Origin: Rheinheimera salexigens
Lineage (GTDB): Bacteria; Pseudomonadota; Gammaproteobacteria; Enterobacterales; Alteromonadaceae
Direction: 5' to 3'
DNA: 64,000 nt
NCBI RefSeq assembly: GCF_001752395.1
Contig: NZ_MKEK01000001.1
Coordinates: 2,799,608 to 2,863,607, forward strand
In this document: positions 1,866 to 9,445 of the stretch, in pieces
How the letters are laid out: every line of letters starts with the position of its first letter
Position numbering within the stretch: position 1 is the first letter of the stretch
Made by a program: the position numbers and the translations under genes
Notes under the pieces: model-generated
Seen by the model: only the letters and a program-made list of their open reading frames with translations
Database searches by the model: none
What the model was told of the DNA's origin: nothing

Positions 1866-3074
1866 TTAAGTTTTATCAATGCCTGTATTGTGCAAACTAT
1901 TAAGTGATGTATTTAACCAGTCGTGATACTGCGATAACGCAACATGTTTAACCTCTAATGCATCAGCATTTATATACACTGCATCTAAACCTTTCTGCTT
2001 ATGGTTAAGCATTCGCTCGCCTACCCAGTAATCAATGCCTATAGTTGCCCAAGCACTTCTAGCAAGTTTTCGTAAATCATGTGCGCTAAACTTACCTGCT
2101 GATGCTGCTCTAATCAGTTTCTGAGCATCATTGTGTGAATAGGCTTTACGGTTATATTCAAATAAATACTCACCTTGGCTTAGCTCCCTAAAAGCCAGTA
2201 GCATAGCTTTAGCCTGCTTAGTAATCGGCATAATGTGGTTGGAGTCAGTTTTAGTAATGGCAGCCGGTATCGTGATCTGATTAACTTCAAAGTCGAAGTA
2301 ACACCATTTAAGTTTTCTGGTTTCACCTATGCGCGTAGCAAACATCATCATAAACAACAGCATGGTTTTAACTGGCTCGGATAAACCTATTATTAACGCC
2401 ATAGTACGGCCAGCGTCACTTACTAATAACCGCCCTTGCTTAGGCTCAATGCGCCGTTGAATGTGATCACCAAACCGCATTGTGGCCATAGGGTTAATGC
2501 TTACTAAGCCCAGTTCATTGGCACTTTTAAAAGCCCGTTTTAATACAGCAAAATATTGTCTAATGGTGGACGGTTTAAGTGATGCATTCTGTAGCGGTAG
2601 CATTAAACGCTCATCAATAACTAATTTAGTTAAATCAGTAATTTTGATATTGGCCAAACGTGGTACCAGATGCTTTTCAATAGCGCATTTAACCCCTTTA
2701 CGGCGGCTATCGCTTTTAACAGACTCGCGTTCAATACGGCCTAAATACCAAGTAAGCAGCTGGCCAACCGTTGCAAAATCACTATTTTGTACATCAGTAC
2801 CAGTTGCTAATTTTTTCAATATTTCAGGAACTATCGAATGTGCATCTTTAGTTTTTAGTGCTGGCCAGTAACCTAACCGCTGTCTTAACTTTTTACCTGC
2901 TTCATATCGCACCAAATACCACGTCCCTTTATCGCGATTTTTATGTATGCGTAACGCTAACGGGTGCCTATGATCACGTAGTTCACCAATCGTTAAATCT
3001 GCTGCAAATCGAACCACAGCAGCATCAGTTATTGCTAACGCGACAGATTTCATTAACGCAGCAGACTTCATCAT
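1866..3074 (-). CDS. int: Tyrosine-family phage integrase
   Basis: A 402-residue site-specific recombinase. An N-terminal DUF4102-like arm-binding region (about 20-95) is followed by a SAM-like core-binding domain (about 100-195) and the catalytic domain. The catalytic set is visible: R248 (ATRIGETR), K275 (ITKTDSN), H332-x-x-R335 (SAHDLR), H358 and the nucleophile Y367 (LDAVYIN). It catalyses prophage integration and excision. The gene sits inside the leftward replication operon, overlapping the upstream 68-codon gene by 4 bases, and is over 11 kb from the inferred right boundary, which is unusual for a prophage integrase. It looks intact. Confidence 0.95.
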   Translation of the reverse strand: MMKSAALMKSVALAITDAAVVRFAADLTIGELRDHRHPLALRIHKNRDKGTWYLVRYEAGKKLRQRLGYWPALKTKDAHSIVPEILKKLATGTDVQNSDFATVGQLLTWYLGRIERESVKSDSRRKGVKCAIEKHLVPRLANIKITDLTKLVIDERLMLPLQNASLKPSTIRQYFAVLKRAFKSANELGLVSINPMATMRFGDHIQRRIEPKQGRLLVSDAGRTMALIIGLSEPVKTMLLFMMMFATRIGETRKLKWCYFDFEVNQITIPAAITKTDSNHIMPITKQAKAMLLAFRELSQGEYLFEYNRKAYSHNDAQKLIRAASAGKFSAHDLRKLARSAWATIGIDYWVGERMLNHKQKGLDAVYINADALEVKHVALSQYHDWLNTSLNSLHNTGIDKT

Positions 3075-3494: not shown

Positions 3495-4253
3495 TTATCT
3501 TCTGCTGCGACCAGTGAAAGCCAAAACTAAACCGCCATCTTCGCGCAAACGGTCAACAACACGAGTACCTACAGCTTCTTTAACACCTGTAATATCTAAA
3601 TTGCTCACCAGAACAGTTGGCAGCATGTTGTTGTAACGGCCATCGATAACATCAAAAATAAATAGCTTTTCTGTATCGCTGCCATAGCCCATACCCACTT
3701 CGTCAATCACCAGTAAATCGATGCTTGCAAACTTTTTTATCAACTGTGTTTCTGTAAAGTGTGCACCAGGCCGCCAGCAATCTTTTAGCTCTCTGATCAG
3801 GTCTTGCATTTTCACAATGCGGCAACGCTTACCTGAAGCTAGCAATTGATTTACCGTTGCAGACATCAGCAATGTTTTACCTGTTCCTAGACTGCCGCAC
3901 ATAACCATATTTCCACTGCCGTCTAACTGAATTTTGTTACAAAAAAGCTTTATGCTTGCGAGGTTTTTAGCTTCGTGATCTTCTTCTGGAACGTAATCAT
4001 CAAAACATGCATCAACATTGCGCAGTGATACACCCGCTTCAATTCTCGACCGTCTAACCAAGTCAGCAGCCTGTTTTTTAGCAAGCTGAGCATCTTCAGC
4101 ACGTTGTTTTTGGTTGTTCTCAACAGCGCACTTAGGGCAATAATCATTTTTAAAAAACTTAGTGCCCATTGGCAGAAAACGCATTTCGTAATCACCGTGC
4201 TTTGCACAGTGTAAAAGTTGAATGTTTTTTGGCATTTCAGTCACTAAATTCAT
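3495..4253 (-). CDS. DnaC-like helicase loader ATPase
   Basis: A 252-residue AAA+ protein. The N-terminus has a likely zinc finger (C16-x2-H19 and C39-x2-C42). Walker A is GSLGTGKT (about 120-127) and Walker B is LLVIDEVG (D184-E185). Late residues around SNLD and RVVDRLRE fit the sensor 1 and Arg-finger regions of the DnaC/IstB group. In phages this loads host DnaB helicase onto the origin, the role of lambda P. It overlaps the O-like gene by 4 bases, the usual initiator-plus-loader pair. Confidence 0.9.
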   Translation of the reverse strand: MNLVTEMPKNIQLLHCAKHGDYEMRFLPMGTKFFKNDYCPKCAVENNQKQRAEDAQLAKKQAADLVRRSRIEAGVSLRNVDACFDDYVPEEDHEAKNLASIKLFCNKIQLDGSGNMVMCGSLGTGKTLLMSATVNQLLASGKRCRIVKMQDLIRELKDCWRPGAHFTETQLIKKFASIDLLVIDEVGMGYGSDTEKLFIFDVIDGRYNNMLPTVLVSNLDITGVKEAVGTRVVDRLREDGGLVLAFTGRSRR

Positions 4254-5122
4254 AAAGCCCCCGATGTATAATTTTGTTTTTCAAACGAATGCGGTAACTT
4301 TTGTTTGCTGGGCGAAGCCCTAGCGTTAATCAGCCACTCGTACTCAAAACCAGCCCAACCTTTCATCATCGCTTCACCCAAGCAATCATCTACAGTAAAG
4401 CCAGCGTCAACAGCCAAGCTAAGCTGTTTGGCCAGTCGGTTTACAACGGTTTGTGTCATGGGTGATTTTTTAGCTTTACGAAAAGTTAGGTAATCTTTGA
4501 AAACTTGGTCACTCGGTTTAGCAGGCCAGTTTGAATAATCTAAATCCTTGGCAGCTTTTGCGCGTTCAAGTTTGCTAGCACCAGCGACAGCGGTGCTAAT
4601 CTCTTCTTCAGGAATCAATGAATCAGGAATCAATGAATCAGGAATCAGAGAATCAGCAAGATATTCACCGTCTTTACACGGTGGATTAACCGTTAAAGCA
4701 CCGTTACTATCTTTTCTGTTACCGTTATCCTGTTGTTGTTTAACGGTTTCAGTCTTGGTTTTTGCAGCCTGTTTATCTTTACTGCTAGGGTAAACACCGT
4801 TAATGTCGGGTAATTCACTGGCCTTTTCTGTGTGATGTGGGTTTTGGTGTTTAGTAAAATTAAGTATTTGCACCAGCCTTTCACCGTTAATTTCATAGCG
4901 TTGAATAAAGCCAAATCGCTCTAATTCAGATAACCCATGATCAACATCAACATTATCAGCCGGAAAAACACCCATTCTAATACGCTTGGGTCTATCTTCT
5001 AACCGGCCTTCACGGTCAGATAATGTCCACAGGCCAATAAATAAAAGACGGTATTCAAAAGATAATTCAACCAGATCATCATTAAGAAAAAATGCTGGCT
5101 TAATATTACGTGCTCTGGCCAT
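4250..5122 (-). CDS. Phage replication initiator, O/DnaT-like
   Basis: A 290-residue protein. Residues 1-105 match the winged-helix N-domain common in phage replisome organisers (FFLNDDLVELSFEYRLLFIGL). A low-complexity, Gln/Asn/Lys-rich linker follows (about 110-190) and contains DSLIP repeated three times. The C-terminal part (about 195-275), with a conserved aromatic GWAGFEYEW end, resembles the DnaT/DnaB-interacting module. It is expected to bind the phage origin and recruit the loader encoded next. The linker-coding DNA carries tandem repeats that may be the origin itself, as in lambda O. Not recognised at gene-symbol level. Confidence 0.85.
   Translation of the reverse strand: MARARNIKPAFFLNDDLVELSFEYRLLFIGLWTLSDREGRLEDRPKRIRMGVFPADNVDVDHGLSELERFGFIQRYEINGERLVQILNFTKHQNPHHTEKASELPDINGVYPSSKDKQAAKTKTETVKQQQDNGNRKDSNGALTVNPPCKDGEYLADSLIPDSLIPDSLIPEEEISTAVAGASKLERAKAAKDLDYSNWPAKPSDQVFKDYLTFRKAKKSPMTQTVVNRLAKQLSLAVDAGFTVDDCLGEAMMKGWAGFEYEWLINARASPSKQKLPHSFEKQNYTSGAL
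4608..4652. repeat. Three tandem 15-bp iteron-like repeats in the replication gene
   Basis: Unit TCAGGAATCAATGAA occurs at 4608-4622 and 4623-4637 without change, then as a variant at 4638-4652 (TCAGGAATCAGAGAA). The repeats stay in frame and encode DSLIP three times. Iterons within the initiator gene are known from lambdoid phages, so this is a candidate origin of replication; function is inferred from position only. Confidence 0.65.
4689..4889. repeat. Cluster of six ACCGTTA heptamers next to the iterons
   Basis: ACCGTTA occurs exactly at 4689, 4700, 4721, 4796 and 4883, and in reverse at 4741. They lie in different codon frames and encode different residues, so codon use alone does not account for them. 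They flank the 15-bp repeats on one side and may be initiator-binding sites. The heptamer is short and background density was not computed. Confidence 0.35.
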
Positions 5123-5313: not shown

Positions 5314-5817
5314 TTACTTACCAATCACCGCTGTTGGGTGCTTTGGTAAATCTCTTACTTGACCTTCAACCACCGCATTTAGCGCCAGCGCTTCGTCTAC
5401 AGTTTTCATTAATTTGGCTTTTATTCGCGCAAACTCAGTGCTATCAATCACTCCATCTTCACGTGCAAGACGTATCTCTCCCAGCGCAGCGCCTAATTGT
5501 TCACTAACCCGCATTAACTGGTCACTTAGTTCTTCATCGCAGCTAACGCTGTCTGGTAGTTTTACAAACACACCACCACGTTGTTGGCACCATGTTTCTA
5601 AAATTAAATTGTCATTAGCTTTGTCTGTTAATAAAACGGCATCACGTAAGTACAAATGGTTGCTGTCGTTTTCAGGGTTTAGCTTGTTATAAACAACTGA
5701 AATTTTTTGAAATGTTTCTGCTGAAAAGCGCTCAACACCATATTGGTGACCAACAAAATGTGCAGCATCAAGGGGGCATGAAAAGTGCGTGTTTTTTAAT
5801 GTGCGGTTATTCATCAC
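5314..5817 (-). CDS. CII-like phage regulatory protein (CP76 family)
   Basis: The 167-residue product has the features of the Phage_CP76 family: an N-terminal region with CPLDAAHFVGHQYGVERFSAE, a central part reading Y-N-K-L-N-P-E-N, then a helical C-terminus with an E-D-G-x-I-D-x-x-E-F motif. Members are CII-like activators that influence the lysis-lysogeny decision. It overlaps the stop of the Cro-like gene by one base and lies between it and the replication initiator, the same place as cII in lambda. Confidence 0.75.
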   Translation of the reverse strand: MMNNRTLKNTHFSCPLDAAHFVGHQYGVERFSAETFQKISVVYNKLNPENDSNHLYLRDAVLLTDKANDNLILETWCQQRGGVFVKLPDSVSCDEELSDQLMRVSEQLGAALGEIRLAREDGVIDSTEFARIKAKLMKTVDEALALNAVVEGQVRDLPKHPTAVIGK

Positions 5818-6053
5818 TAAGCTATCCTGTCTTTAGTTACTTTATTTGGGTGTAAGATTTGTAATGCTGAAAACTTACCATCTGTTTCGTTCGCAATTTT
5901 TTTAGCGTATTCGGTTTCACCGGTGTAATCGGTTCTTGGCAATTTTCCAGCTTTAAGCCATTTGTAAACAGCTCTTACACTGACTCCGCAAGCTTTTGCG
6001 ACCCCTGAGACTTTATTTGGAGTTGATTCTATGGCCTGTTCTAAGATATGCAT
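5817..6053 (-). CDS. Cro-like (YdaS-type) HTH regulator
   Basis: A 78-residue protein with a helix-turn-helix at about 14-38 (VSGVAKACGVSVRAVYKWLK). The form KVSGVAKACGVSVRAVYKW is typical of YdaS/Cro proteins that oppose the CI repressor. It is the first gene of the leftward operon, divergent from the CI-like gene, with a palindromic operator over its promoter. Expected role: shut off the repressor and tune early transcription during lytic growth. Confidence 0.8.
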   Translation of the reverse strand: MHILEQAIESTPNKVSGVAKACGVSVRAVYKWLKAGKLPRTDYTGETEYAKKIANETDGKFSALQILHPNKVTKDRIA

Positions 6054-6068
6054 AACCGCCCTTTTATG

Positions 6069-6083
6069 TGTACTTTTGGTACA
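6069..6083. promoter_or_regulatory. Palindromic phage operator between cro-like and CI-like genes
   Basis: TGTACTTTTGGTACA: arms TGTAC and GTACA around a 5-base spacer. It abuts the -10 of the leftward promoter, and 14 of 15 bases recur at 9691-9705 by the rightward promoter. Flanking TGTGAAC (6091-6097) and GTTCACA (6136-6142) form a second, wider inverted repeat. Likely bound by the CI-like and/or Cro-like protein; which one binds is unknown. Confidence 0.7.
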
Positions 6084-6111
6084 TATTAAATGTGAACTGA
6101 CTTTTCTGCAA
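6083..6111 (-). promoter_or_regulatory. Candidate pR-type promoter for the leftward operon
   Basis: On the minus strand, TTGCAG (6106-6111) and TAATAT (6083-6088) are separated by exactly 17 bases, upstream of the Cro-like start at 6053. The match to the consensus is moderate. The operator adjoins the -10, consistent with direct repression. Confidence 0.45.
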
Positions 6112-6146
6112 GTAAAGAAGAGAATTGAATTATTGGTTCACAAAGA

Positions 6147-6551
6147 ATGATAAATTTGAATAGCTTTAGTAAACGACTTTTAGAGTCAGTAGAAGGTGTT
6201 GGAATTAAACGCCATGGAGCAGGAAACTGGCTTGCAGTGCTTACGAAGGTAACTGTGAAAGCTGCGAATAAGTGGCTAAATGGTGAGTCTATCCCTCGCA
6301 GAGAGAATTTAGAGATTATTGCTAAATCAACTAAAGTAAGGGTTGAATGGTTACAGTATGGTGAAGGAGCAAAAACCACCAGTTATGTTAATGAAAATAT
6401 TTCTGATCTTGACGCATTAATTCAACTCGCCACACCCAGAACCCAAACTGAGCTTTTAAAAATAGCAGAAGCAGCAGCGGATGGCCGGCTAACAGAAGAC
6501 GATGTTAAATTACTTAAAGTTATTGCCGATCGGCTAATAAAAAAGGAATAG
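6147..6551 (+). CDS. CI-like repressor lacking a peptidase domain
   Basis: A 134-residue protein. The N-terminus (about 5-70) is an XRE-like HTH domain of the phage/Bacillus CI form (FSKRLLESV, then KAANKWLNGESIPRRENLEII). The remainder is a short helical C-terminus (about 80-134), not the S24 autocleavage domain found in LexA-type repressors, so induction cannot use ordinary self-cleavage. It is divergent from the Cro-like gene across the operator, and three bases separate it from the kinase gene that follows. It could serve as phage repressor, as a HipB-like partner of the kinase, or both. Confidence 0.8.
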   Translation: MINLNSFSKRLLESVEGVGIKRHGAGNWLAVLTKVTVKAANKWLNGESIPRRENLEIIAKSTKVRVEWLQYGEGAKTTSYVNENISDLDALIQLATPRTQTELLKIAEAAADGRLTEDDVKLLKVIADRLIKKE

Positions 6552-6554
6552 CGC

Positions 6555-7322
6555 TTGCTACAAATAGGGTTTGCTACGCTTTACACCACGCCAAGAGAAG
6601 TAACAGATCTAGGTAACATATCGCCATTATGGCTTGGCGATGCCATAACAGCAACTGGCGACACTAGAATGTACCTTAAGGGTGTGACGTACAGTGAGTT
6701 AATAGCCGAATGCTTATGCACTACTATAGGCTCTGCTTTAGGATTACCAGTTACCCAGACCTATATTATAAAAGACCCACATAAGCTATTAAACGAAAAA
6801 TATATTTTAGGTAGCGAAGATGCTGATATGCCGTCATTTAAACGGCACATGTCTATGGCTGATCAAGCACAAAAGCAAGCAATGTGGCACGGCCTTAAAA
6901 ATTGGGGCCAGTTGTATGAGAGTGCGTTGTTTGATGAATGGATAGCTAACCCAGATAGAAATGCAGGTAACTTTTTATGGGATGGTGGTGAGCATTGGTA
7001 TTTAATTGACCATGCTAGGGCTTTATGGACAACCAATAGCAACAACAAGCCTCATGACGTTGCTAAAAACATTTTGGCTGATATCATTAAAGGCTTTTAT
7101 GAAGAAGTGGGTGTTGCCCAACTAAAAAGAAAGCTTGTCTATGAAATACCTAAGTATCAAAATCTTTGCTCGCAAAAGATTATGCTAGCGGCGCGTTGTA
7201 CCGAATTAGATTGTGTTGAAACGGCTGAAAATAAGCTAATATCATTAGTAACTAGAATAAATGCTATGCCCAATCTTGTTGCTAGGCATAGTGAGCAATG
7301 GGATTTATTTAATGCCAATTAG
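6555..7322 (+). CDS. HipA-like protein kinase
   Basis: A 255-residue kinase-fold protein, much shorter than HipA (about 440). Visible features: candidate ATP-binding K42 (MYLKG), helix-C acidic residues E48/E52, the catalytic loop D134-R-N136-A-G-N139 (NPDRNAGN), and a metal-binding I-D152-H. These match the HipA/PI3-kinase-like catalytic pattern and suggest the smaller HipA_2-type family. The start is a TTG at 6555, placed 8 bases after AAAAGG. It follows the repressor by three bases and overlaps the next gene by 11, so all three are one operon. HipA kinases phosphorylate translation factors; the substrate here is unknown. Confidence 0.75.
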   Translation: MLQIGFATLYTTPREVTDLGNISPLWLGDAITATGDTRMYLKGVTYSELIAECLCTTIGSALGLPVTQTYIIKDPHKLLNEKYILGSEDADMPSFKRHMSMADQAQKQAMWHGLKNWGQLYESALFDEWIANPDRNAGNFLWDGGEHWYLIDHARALWTTNSNNKPHDVAKNILADIIKGFYEEVGVAQLKRKLVYEIPKYQNLCSQKIMLAARCTELDCVETAENKLISLVTRINAMPNLVARHSEQWDLFNAN

Positions 7323-8193
7323 TGATCAGCACTTTCCTGCCCTGCCACGTTACAGCGCAAAAGCTTGCCCAATATTTATAGAGCCCATCATAGGCTCTGG
7401 TGAGCGTATTTGTGTCGGCATAGTAGCGCACGGCCAAGATGGTGAACATGTAGTGGTAAAAACAATTAAAGATGAATCTGCAGCTTGTATGCTTGGTGTG
7501 GCCAGCGTTAAATTTCTTAATATTGTGCAGCTAGTAATAAATAATTTAGATAAATATGCGGCTACTAAAGGAAATATAACTGATTGGAAATCACCCGTGC
7601 CTGGTGTGGTTTTAGGTTCAGTTACGTCAGGCTATGTAACCGACTTAACCATGATGGTAAGAACGGTTGCTAGAAACCATGCTTTTTTATCTGCAATGAG
7701 TGATTTTTCTGCAGCTGATGAAAGCATTGCCGATAACTCACCCGCAACTGATCGTTGGGCTACCATGGTGAAAGAAGCCACAACACTAATACAGCCTAAT
7801 TTAATTGATGCATTTAACCGGCAATTAAAGCTAACCAGTAAAGGCACTACCCGATTCGATTTTGTAGGCCAGAATTTAGCTGCACAGTTGGGCCGCATTA
7901 TTCCGGGCCATGGTATATCAGGTTTGGTTAAAACAGCTAAAGCTAAATTGTGGGATTTAGAAACATTACGCGAGTTTAATACCCGGCAATTATTTACCAG
8001 CAATAGTAGCTACGAACTAATACTGTATAGACCAAAAGATAATGATCCAGCTTATTCAGAAAGAGAAATAGGTAGGTTAAACGAAGCTATAGTTGAACTA
8101 GAAGAAACGGGCGATAAGCTTACTCTAAGAGTGGTATCTGCTTACAGTGCACATGAAGCGGCTGAACGAATAATTTCAACCGAAGTGGCCTGA
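7312..8193 (+). CDS. Unrecognised partner of the HipA-like kinase
   Basis: A 293-residue protein, mixed alpha/beta, with no membrane segment or signal peptide. I chose ATG 7312 because the earlier in-frame start lies deep inside the kinase gene; the overlap with the kinase is then 11 bases. The N-terminal EPIIGSGERICVGIVAHG has a pattern loosely like DUF3037 proteins, which are often encoded beside HipA_2 kinases, but this is weak. The middle is helical and the C-terminus contains ELILYRPKDND. Likely a regulator, substrate or co-effector of the kinase. Function unknown. Confidence 0.65.
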   Translation: MPISDQHFPALPRYSAKACPIFIEPIIGSGERICVGIVAHGQDGEHVVVKTIKDESAACMLGVASVKFLNIVQLVINNLDKYAATKGNITDWKSPVPGVVLGSVTSGYVTDLTMMVRTVARNHAFLSAMSDFSAADESIADNSPATDRWATMVKEATTLIQPNLIDAFNRQLKLTSKGTTRFDFVGQNLAAQLGRIIPGHGISGLVKTAKAKLWDLETLREFNTRQLFTSNSSYELILYRPKDNDPAYSEREIGRLNEAIVELEETGDKLTLRVVSAYSAHEAAERIISTEVA

Positions 8194-8198
8194 TGCTA

Positions 8199-8666
8199 TT
8201 ATTTAATAACTTTTAAGTGAGAACCTTTAGTTTTTTGTTTTTGCCTATCTGCGATTGCACCAATTTTTACTGGCTCAGATATTACCCTTTTTTCAAATGA
8301 TGTTTCACTTATTAGGCTAAGAAACTCCCTAGTTTGCTCTCGCAGCATATTAGTTTCTTGTACTGTAATATCCATATTAAGATCGTAATCAGCTCTATGC
8401 CTGTTTGACTTTAAACTAGTTAAAAACAAACCTATCCGCTGTGCTGATCTTTTGTTTTCAGGTTTAAAATCAGTGGTTTGCTTAAGGTAAACACAAAGCG
8501 ATTCGTGACAACCAACACCACTATATTGGGGGACATCCGTTATCTTTTCTTTAATAGAATTATAGGCAGAATAATAACTTCTGCTAATTACATTTCTTCG
8601 ATTAATTTCGCTTTCTAAATCTAAAAACTCTACAGACTCAAAAAAGTTAATTCCTTTAACTGCCAT
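8199..8666 (-). CDS. HEPN-domain-like protein
   Basis: A 155-residue helical protein. Segments R29-S-Y-Y-S-A-Y-N and N88-R-H-R-A-D-Y-D fit the ADYD subgroup of HEPN proteins, in which an Arg/Tyr helix packs on the R-x-x-A-D-Y helix; the classic R-x4-6-H RNase motif is not clear. HEPN proteins act as toxin RNases or as helical adaptors in toxin-antitoxin and abortive-infection systems. Its ATG shares a base with the stop of the upstream TPR-like gene, so the two are coupled. The Lys-rich C-terminal tail is non-conserved in appearance. Only 5 bases separate it from the convergent kinase operon. Confidence 0.7.
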   Translation of the reverse strand: MAVKGINFFESVEFLDLESEINRRNVISRSYYSAYNSIKEKITDVPQYSGVGCHESLCVYLKQTTDFKPENKRSAQRIGLFLTSLKSNRHRADYDLNMDITVQETNMLREQTREFLSLISETSFEKRVISEPVKIGAIADRQKQKTKGSHLKVIK

Positions 8667-9445
8667 TAATTAAACTCGCTTACAAAAAAACTAACTTTTT
8701 CGCATGTTGCGTCTTGATCTATTAAGTAATCTGCTATTTCCATATTTAAATCAAAATACCGCTTGCCCTCTTTTGCATCAACAGTCACAAAAAAAGGTAT
8801 GCAATCAGGATCATTAACGTTGGTCTGGACCGACTTTACAATAAAACCATTTTTACCAAGCAAATCAAATACACCAATGGCTAATTCAGATATCCTTTTT
8901 GAATCCACCCCAAGCCTTTCATTCGTTTTCAATGCCTCGGTATAAAAACGCATTAAATTAGTGATTTTTTGAGGGTCATAAGAGCTCATATTACCGTGCT
9001 TATCAATCAAGTTAAAACAATAACTTATTGTATCAAGGTCGCGAAAATGCGCGGCTTTAGAGCAAAGTGAACTTATAAGAACTTGATCATGGATATAATT
9101 TAGCGATTCAACAAGAATTGCATAAGACTCACTAGGGTAACCTCTAGCCCAAAGGTAATTAGCAAAATGTAACCACGAAGCAGGTTCAGTTGAGTCTAAT
9201 AATATAGACCTATGGAAAATCTTTTTTGCTTCAGCAATATTTTTATCAATATTAATTTGAACTATTGCTTTTAAGGCAAGTTTTATCGAGTCATTTTGGA
9301 CTTTGCTTATCTGTTCTTCTAATGAAGCGATATCACTGCTACTAAGTAAATTTTGGTTAGTTAAAGTTATATTATCCAAGTCAACCATTGCGTCTAAGTT
9401 ATTTAAAACTTCGTTAGGTAAACTAACTGCATCTGGTACGAGCAT
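8666..9445 (-). CDS. Helical-repeat (TPR-like) protein coupled to the HEPN gene
   Basis: A 259-residue protein. Residues about 60-150 have TPR-like helix pairs (AKKIFHRSILLDSTEPASWLHFA, then an ESYAILVESLNYI helix). The last 60 residues form a distinct, beta-rich end (IPFFVTVDAKEGKRYFDL). Neither signal peptide nor membrane segment is seen, so it is likely cytosolic. It is the first gene of a two-gene minus-strand unit and overlaps the HEPN gene by one base. The region is AT-rich relative to the flanking phage genes. Role as antitoxin, sensor or scaffold is speculative. Confidence 0.6.
   Translation of the reverse strand: MLVPDAVSLPNEVLNNLDAMVDLDNITLTNQNLLSSSDIASLEEQISKVQNDSIKLALKAIVQINIDKNIAEAKKIFHRSILLDSTEPASWLHFANYLWARGYPSESYAILVESLNYIHDQVLISSLCSKAAHFRDLDTISYCFNLIDKHGNMSSYDPQKITNLMRFYTEALKTNERLGVDSKRISELAIGVFDLLGKNGFIVKSVQTNVNDPDCIPFFVTVDAKEGKRYFDLNMEIADYLIDQDATCEKVSFFVSEFN

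Follow-up and report, generated by a model that had tools for sequence, protein, structure and literature searches.

A phage repressor gene in a prophage of Rheinheimera salexigens is followed in the same operon by genes for a HipA-like kinase and a partner protein, and the three together probably constitute a toxin-antitoxin defense unit of the HipAD kind, borne by the prophage, in which the phage repressor is an additional, third component. The novelty lies in the C-terminal tail of the repressor, not in the kinase-partner pair. This reading draws on gene order, the fold of the kinase, the homology chain of the partner, the tail in place of an S24 peptidase domain, the association of the tail with the kinase, and purifying selection; kinase toxicity, neutralization by the partner, and defense are carried over by analogy from related published systems. 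To take repressor, kinase, and partner as one regulated unit is the most economical view. Positions given below refer to the window (the whole 64,000-nucleotide stretch of DNA analyzed) unless the contig or another locus, denoted by an L number, is named.

The operon was located within the immunity region of a prophage that spans contig positions ~2773011-2814167 (about 41 kb) and is flanked on both sides by flagellar-looking genes, presumably of the host. The same prophage continues to the left of the window, with an integrase and genes for terminase, portal, head, and tail proteins. Two integrases were observed in the prophage, both matching phrog_1, one near the DnaC-like gene (1866-3074 of the window) and one at the left end (L197:9403-10641). 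On the minus strand, divergent from the repressor gene, is a gene for a cro-like regulator (5817..6053; phrog_35 repressor, E 3e-11), followed by those for a CII-like regulator (Phage_CP76; 5314..5817, minus strand; PF06892, E 1.5e-20) and, as wider context, an O-like replication initiation protein (4250..5122, minus strand; phrog_12556, E 5e-59) and a DnaC-like helicase loader (3495..4253, minus strand; phrog_50, E 3e-55). Because cro-like and CII genes lie opposite the operon and O-like and DnaC-like genes follow them, the phage immunity region named in the preliminary description fits. Between the cro-like and repressor genes, an operator-like palindrome, TGTAC-N5-GTACA (6069..6083), is kept in the aligned loci L004 and L005, as is the core GAAC / GTTC of the inverted half-sites TGTGAAC / GTTCACA, which stand 38 nt apart (6091..6142); L161 is the same contig as L005, so the conservation of the operators comes from these two relatives. 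Beyond the operon, at 8199-9445 on the minus strand, are two genes of 155 and 259 aa, the first matching phrog_5176. Other genes occupy that place in L004 and L005, so it looks like a variable accessory slot.

The first gene of the operon (6147..6551, plus strand; ATG at 6147, stop at 6549-6551) encodes a CI-like phage repressor of 134 aa, recognized by the PHROG transcriptional repressor profiles phrog_4 (E 7e-9) and phrog_3037 (E 1e-7); its HTH_3 match (E 9.7e-5, 22.8 bits) falls just below the 23-bit cut-off. No S24 peptidase was matched in it by Pfam profiles, and its length is only 134 aa. The kinase gene (6555..7322, plus strand; 255 aa) begins with a TTG at 6555, three bases past the repressor stop, and ends at 7320-7322, overlapping by 11 nt the partner gene (7312..8193, plus strand; 293 aa; ATG at 7312, stop at 8191-8193). 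A mechanical reading of the partner ORF begins at 7261 (310 aa); the 12 closest relatives (P0002-P0013) are all 293 aa with the same start as 7312. Coordinates and profiles thus agree with the original account of a repressor without a cleavage domain, a kinase three bases on, and an overlapping gene of 293 residues.

The kinase, the likely toxin, matched HipA_2 (PF20613) with E 3.3e-11 and 43.3 bits against a cut-off of 27, and carries the motifs NPDRNAGN and IDH, which bears out its earlier description as HipA-like; Pfam listed HipA_2 and not HipA_C for it. In an alignment of 49 sequences, the window included, N132, D134, R135, N139, I151, and D152 were invariant and G138 and H153 nearly so. 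The catalytic Lys, Glu, Asp, and Asn and the metal-binding Asp are all kept. Structure prediction was confident (pLDDT 94) and gave a kinase fold, matching the structures of CtkA, HipA, and HipT. Against the PADLOC model PDC-M66A the match was weak (E 0.0084), and the kinase of the Marinobacter M3C plasmid discussed below matched at 6e-7.

The partner is the likely antitoxin. It matched phrog_21150 (E 2e-48), and residues 144-293 have an XPF/ERCC1-like fold. Neither Pfam nor PADLOC gave a match to the window partner, which was recognized neither as DUF3037 nor as PDC-M66B, and PADLOC likewise gave none on the window-type and intermediate partners searched (window, M3C, L090); in the control, a DUF3037 partner matched PDC-M66B at E 2e-24 and its kinase matched PDC-M66A at E 3e-9. 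A relationship to DUF3037 emerged through a chain of profile comparisons. Window-type partners matched an intermediate family with P 3.4e-12 over 256 columns (score 88, at most 23 in 20 column shuffles), and the intermediate family matched DUF3037 with P 4.9e-6 over 222 columns (score 48, at most 22 in 20 column shuffles); pooled, the comparison of the partner with DUF3037 gave P 3.5e-6. The intermediate alignment held 10 sequences, two of which, L144 and L148, match the window-type profile as well as the intermediate one. Direct comparison of window-type partners with DUF3037 varied: a first try was no better than chance (P 0.12), a second gave P 0.043, the best of 20 shuffles reaching 0.042, with a higher-scoring reversed control (0.0093), wider alignments gave P 1.1e-4 (score 39; highest of 30 shuffles, 25), and the largest set gave P 0.0042 (score 29; highest of 20 shuffles, 16). 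Because the direct comparison is weak, the homology rests on the intermediate family. By these profiles the partner is a distant relative of DUF3037, joined to it through that family, and the pair therefore looks like a diverged toxin-antitoxin of the HipAD type.

Kinase and partner are a conserved, mobile pair. The kinase lay directly upstream of the partner, or was fused to it, in 28 of 30 loci, several of them near-copies, as well as in the window; the remaining two (L014 and L016) matched only part of the partner. The pair recurred in the same order across phages and bacteria, beyond what chance would give. Neither of the findings that the preliminary description named as counting against it was made: the kinase fold is predicted with confidence, and the third gene goes with the kinase. 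Among 274 genomes searched, DUF3037 adjoined a HipA_2 match in all seven above the cut-off, and an eighth, below it, lacked one; DUF3037 pairs in viral contigs had the same gene order and the same partner size. In Plasticicumulans acidivorans (L015:7089-8843), kinase and partner are fused in one ORF of 584 residues. An ORF with the same scores and coordinates was observed in the viral contig L020. At L006 (2797-4518 and 758-2385), a window-type pair neighbors a reverse transcriptase that carries a fused trypsin-like domain (RVT_1, Trypsin_2), an arrangement reminiscent of the HipA/DUF3037 retron, and at L007 (3788-6425 and 7222-8849) another has TnsA-like and Mu-type transposase genes as neighbors, resembling a Tn7-like element.

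Published work on the related pair guides the assignment of roles. As reported for Retron-Sda1, defense against Bas51 needs the HipA kinase, deletion of the DUF3037 gene is toxic, the DUF3037 partner neutralizes its kinase, and the RT, ncRNA, and the retron's HTH are dispensable (available text of PMC12548924, which also gives PDC-M66 as the PADLOC name of the HipA kinase/DUF3037 pair). In DS-6, renamed HipAD, mutation of the kinase is reported to abolish defense (available text of PMC13092281, which for HipAD cites Brenes and Laub 2025, by its title an E. coli prophage study). These published defense data concern the DUF3037 type, in which the tail is absent (0 of 27 units, below). By analogy, the third protein, and not the repressor, is the likely antitoxin, and the pair most likely works as a HipAD-like toxin-antitoxin, though by model match it is no listed member.

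How often the pair is preceded by the repressor tail was counted in a census of 79 non-redundant units. Partners shorter than 241 or longer than 339 aa (hence the fused and truncated cases), partners with no ORF of 171-429 aa next to them on the upstream side, and units in which this ORF was at least 90% identical to one already kept were left out; the upstream ORF was counted as a kinase by place and size. A tail was found in 17 units, and 45 had neither a tail nor an S24 repressor within 350 nt upstream, where 'neither' is by two profiles only and takes in an Arc-like gene (L003), chromosomal sites, and tails recognized as divergent by eye. Units of the window type (n = 43) had 10 tails, 7 S24 repressors, 24 with neither, and 2 without room upstream; those of the intermediate type (n = 9) had 7 tails and 2 with neither; those of the DUF3037 type (n = 27) had no tail, 8 S24 repressors, and 19 with neither. 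Since 45 of the 79 have neither, the pair does not need the tail. Tail genes were placed -25 to +7 nt from the next gene. For S24 genes the gap to the next gene was 31 to 267 nt in window-type units, and in DUF3037 units it ranged from an overlap of 15 nt to a gap of 65 nt. Mapped onto a tree of 52 partners, the distribution of the tail calls for 4 changes, and well-supported branches force at least 3 of them; the tail may thus be old with losses, or may have been gained more than once.

The tail itself (residues 95-134 of the repressor; 6429..6548, plus strand) stands in place of the peptidase. It comprises ~40 conserved residues with the pattern [ST]P[RKN][ST]...L[ST]..D, probably forming two helices, and its gene abuts or overlaps that of the kinase. 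The two positions flanking the Pro hold Ser or Thr in all 17 tails, and in 16 of these an Arg or Lys stands between them; the Ser/Thr residues may be phosphorylation sites, or may do no more than cap a helix. The ~40 residues are conserved across units with distant kinases and two partner types. When the tail repressors were compared in 136 pairs, 80 showed no detectable similarity between the DNA-binding parts (z below 3), yet 78 of these pairs had matching tails (z at least 5); the repressors had been picked for having a tail, so the point of the test is the contrast with the DNA-binding part. Ratios of dN/dS or pN/pS for the tail were 0.04-0.16 in six comparisons, indicating purifying selection, with many synonymous rates saturated. 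The tail ratio was below that of the DNA-binding part in five of the six, and below that of the kinase in three and above it in three; the tail part in two comparisons, of intermediate type, includes a further extension. Purifying selection on the tail argues against mere hitchhiking.

Variants of the tail were also observed. By eye, tail repressors of intermediate type (L155, L156, L157, L158, L159, L090, L195) have an extra C-terminal motif, approximately [HNSY].[RK]LR.[KR][LF]..[NDH]D, which is absent from window-type tails. Diverged tails, possibly of a second type, were seen by eye before the kinase at L002, L031, L033, L074, and L089; they fail the profile (E 0.17 for L033, 0.38 for L089, the others unlisted) and were not counted. 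A weak tail match at L023 (E 0.19) was rejected, being an ORF of 46 residues and not a repressor preceding a kinase. In the hand-typed set A4, the variant L028 was kept despite its differing turn.

Whether the tail belongs to the kinase or to phages at large was judged from its distribution. Of the 9,902 ORFs in 194 loci, 40 strongly matched (E below 1e-14) a profile built on 14 of the 17 distinct tails, and all 40 belong to kinase units, most of these loci having been collected via the kinase or the partner and many being overlapping copies of one contig. The partner was in the locus for 37 of the 40, and the other three were stretches ending early: two are the window itself and the third is L161, with the kinase as the next gene. 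No tail-bearing ORF in the 194 loci matched the S24 profile. Searched by tail only, 50,697 phage records (E up to 1) yielded a single match, in Pseudomonas phage D14P (its repressor, E 8e-7), and 72,556 plasmid records yielded a single convincing one, in Marinobacter M3C (E 0.02). Both lie outside the profile and both are followed by kinase and partner: the M3C kinase is annotated as HipA family, the D14P kinase was recognized by its place in the gene order and by the motifs NSDRHPGN and IDH, and the two partners match the partner profiles (5.7e-110 and 5.7e-129). With the window's own tail as query and E up to 10, these two records again ranked highest (2e-4 and 2e-7), followed by four more plasmid matches at E 2 to 10. 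Phages P24 and qsb1, which both carry the pair, were absent from the results of the tail-only search, so that a tail match was obtained in only two of the four annotated records with the pair (P24, qsb1, D14P, and the phage-like plasmid of M3C).

In whole genomes the tail was found in 1 of 229 (class) and 1 of 254 (phylum), each time the window's own. All seven confirmed tail matches in viral contigs were in contigs already known for the pair; the search pattern was derived from those sequences, so this search shows only the absence of a new tail without a kinase. No convincing tail without a kinase was found in the phage, plasmid, genome, or viral-contig searches, and the tail as a general phage feature was rejected for that reason. 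Of the 19 relatives of the repressor's DNA-binding domain in viral contigs, some of them near-copies, 17 were S24 repressors with no kinase or partner in the locus, one had tail, kinase, and partner, and one had no readable ORF; the S24 peptidase was thus kept in 17 of 17 resolved relatives without a kinase. Among 196 family genomes, one genome besides the window's own gave a strong repressor match (E 6e-48), with tail and kinase, and five further matches were weak (E 1e-4 to 6e-4). A word search of the literature, with subscription papers largely outside its coverage, found no report of the tail, and no experiment on the window unit or on any tail-bearing unit was found.

The order of events in such a unit may be pictured as follows. 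In the lysogen the kinase would be expressed together with the repressor, presumably from a shared promoter, and held in check by the overlapping partner. An infecting phage would disturb the partner, whereupon the kinase would phosphorylate host targets and growth or infection would be aborted. In the repressor, a conserved tail that goes with the kinase pair would have replaced the RecA-cleavable S24 domain, and we infer from sequence that this tail couples repressor and kinase, either by docking on the kinase-partner complex or as its substrate. Operator binding by the repressor and the state of the kinase would then be interdependent. We also entertain, tentatively, a more far-reaching version: that some temperate phages exchanged the RecA-cleaved repressor domain for a tail that reads the kinase, and that the HipA-type pair of the same operon would then set both abortive defense and prophage induction. 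Attack by another phage would free the kinase to act on the host and, via the tail, on the repressor; the tail would move with the kinase pair while DNA-binding domains were swapped in front of it, so that immunity type could change without loss of the coupling.

A simpler account, which we consider unlikely, is that a plain two-gene HipAD-like pair rides the repressor operon for expression in the lysogen, much as rexAB would, and that the tail is a dimerization or translation-coupling element of the cassette. A recognized tail is indeed missing from most units, among them those that neighbor a reverse transcriptase or Tn7-like transposition genes and those that follow an S24 repressor, and the kinase start overlaps or abuts the codons of the tail. 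Coupling of translation would, however, constrain few codons, yet the conservation between distant units extends over ~40 residues, under purifying selection of about the strength seen in the kinase, and the searches of phages, plasmids, genomes, and viral contigs returned no convincing tail apart from a kinase.

We regard as more doubtful still that the kinase is mainly a switch for induction, which would phosphorylate the [ST]P[RKN][ST] site of the tail and so derepress a prophage that RecA cannot induce by cleavage, toxicity being secondary. The missing S24 match in tail-bearing ORFs and the constancy of both Ser/Thr positions are in its favor, and phosphorylation-controlled lysogeny has a precedent in the kinase-kinase-phosphatase (KKP) of Pf prophages (available text of PMC11341870); the related kinase, however, is a toxin neutralized by its partner (available text of PMC12548924), and helix N-caps are another plausible role for the Ser/Thr-Pro and L[ST]..D positions. 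A literature search on the phosphorylation of repressors returned no paper.

HipB is an HTH protein and, to our knowledge, not a phage repressor. That the repressor itself is a HipB-like antitoxin, as the preliminary description suggested, and the third gene incidental, is very improbable: the HTH nature of HipB, the operon order, and the kinase-linked tail speak for it, but kinase and third gene are the constant pair, fused in Plasticicumulans, whereas repressors vary or are absent, the pair occurring also without a direct upstream repressor and behind S24 repressors or an Arc-like gene, and the neutralizer in the related system is the DUF3037 partner. Two parts of that proposal are supported, a real kinase in a prophage immunity operon and, by comparative evidence, a special link between repressor and kinase, in the form of a conserved tail replacing the cleavage domain; the role of antitoxin for the repressor is not supported.

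Like HipBA and HipBST, the unit has a HipA-fold Ser/Thr kinase beside an HTH gene, and HipBST also has three genes. In HipBA a HipA_C kinase is neutralized by HipB, and in HipBST a short N-subdomain protein, HipS, is the antitoxin; the window kinase, however, is HipA_2, and its partner is 293 aa with an XPF/ERCC1-like C-terminal fold. The rexAB exclusion genes of lambda are expressed with the repressor, beside cI, and we know of no kinase or repressor tail in that system. With HipAD/DS-6/PDC-M66 the unit shares a HipA_2 kinase followed by an overlapping partner of ~280 aa, related through the intermediate family, and differs in a partner without a Pfam or PADLOC match, a kinase only weakly matching PDC-M66A, and tail repressors that go with window-type and intermediate partners and not with DUF3037. 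To call it a new type of toxin system was an overstatement for the pair, a diverged relative of this published system; the repressor tail is new.

The paaR2-paaA2-parE2 operon of prophage CP-933P is likewise a three-gene operon in a lambdoid immunity region, with Cro- and CII-like genes opposite, in which a CI-like repressor without a peptidase motif precedes a toxin-antitoxin pair; its toxin, however, is ParE and not a kinase, and a toxin-linked repressor tail is not described in the available text (PMC8630535). Gerdes (2021) proposed Stl-like repressors (HipR) as partners of the HipF and HipG kinases, and thus a link of a repressor of mobile-element type with a HipA-family kinase; those systems are bicistronic, the Stl-like repressor was predicted by Phyre2, and a third partner is not named in the available text (PMC8262856). 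The KKP kinases, also of a prophage, govern phage production and defense with tripartite toxin-antitoxin behavior, but are opposed by a phosphatase and act via the host silencer MvaU, with no phage repressor tail in the available text (PMC11341870).

With this finding the HipAD defense family gains two partner types, both unrecognized by Pfam and PADLOC in the partners tested. It also bears on two questions, how phages with an uncleavable repressor decide to leave the host and how prophage defense is coordinated with lysogeny; a short repressor tail whose presence points to a likely toxin kinase in the adjacent gene offers a cheap, direct handle on a physical link between the two. Because the DNA-damage switch of the repressor was swapped for a kinase-linked tail, prophage dormancy and defense may be wired together.
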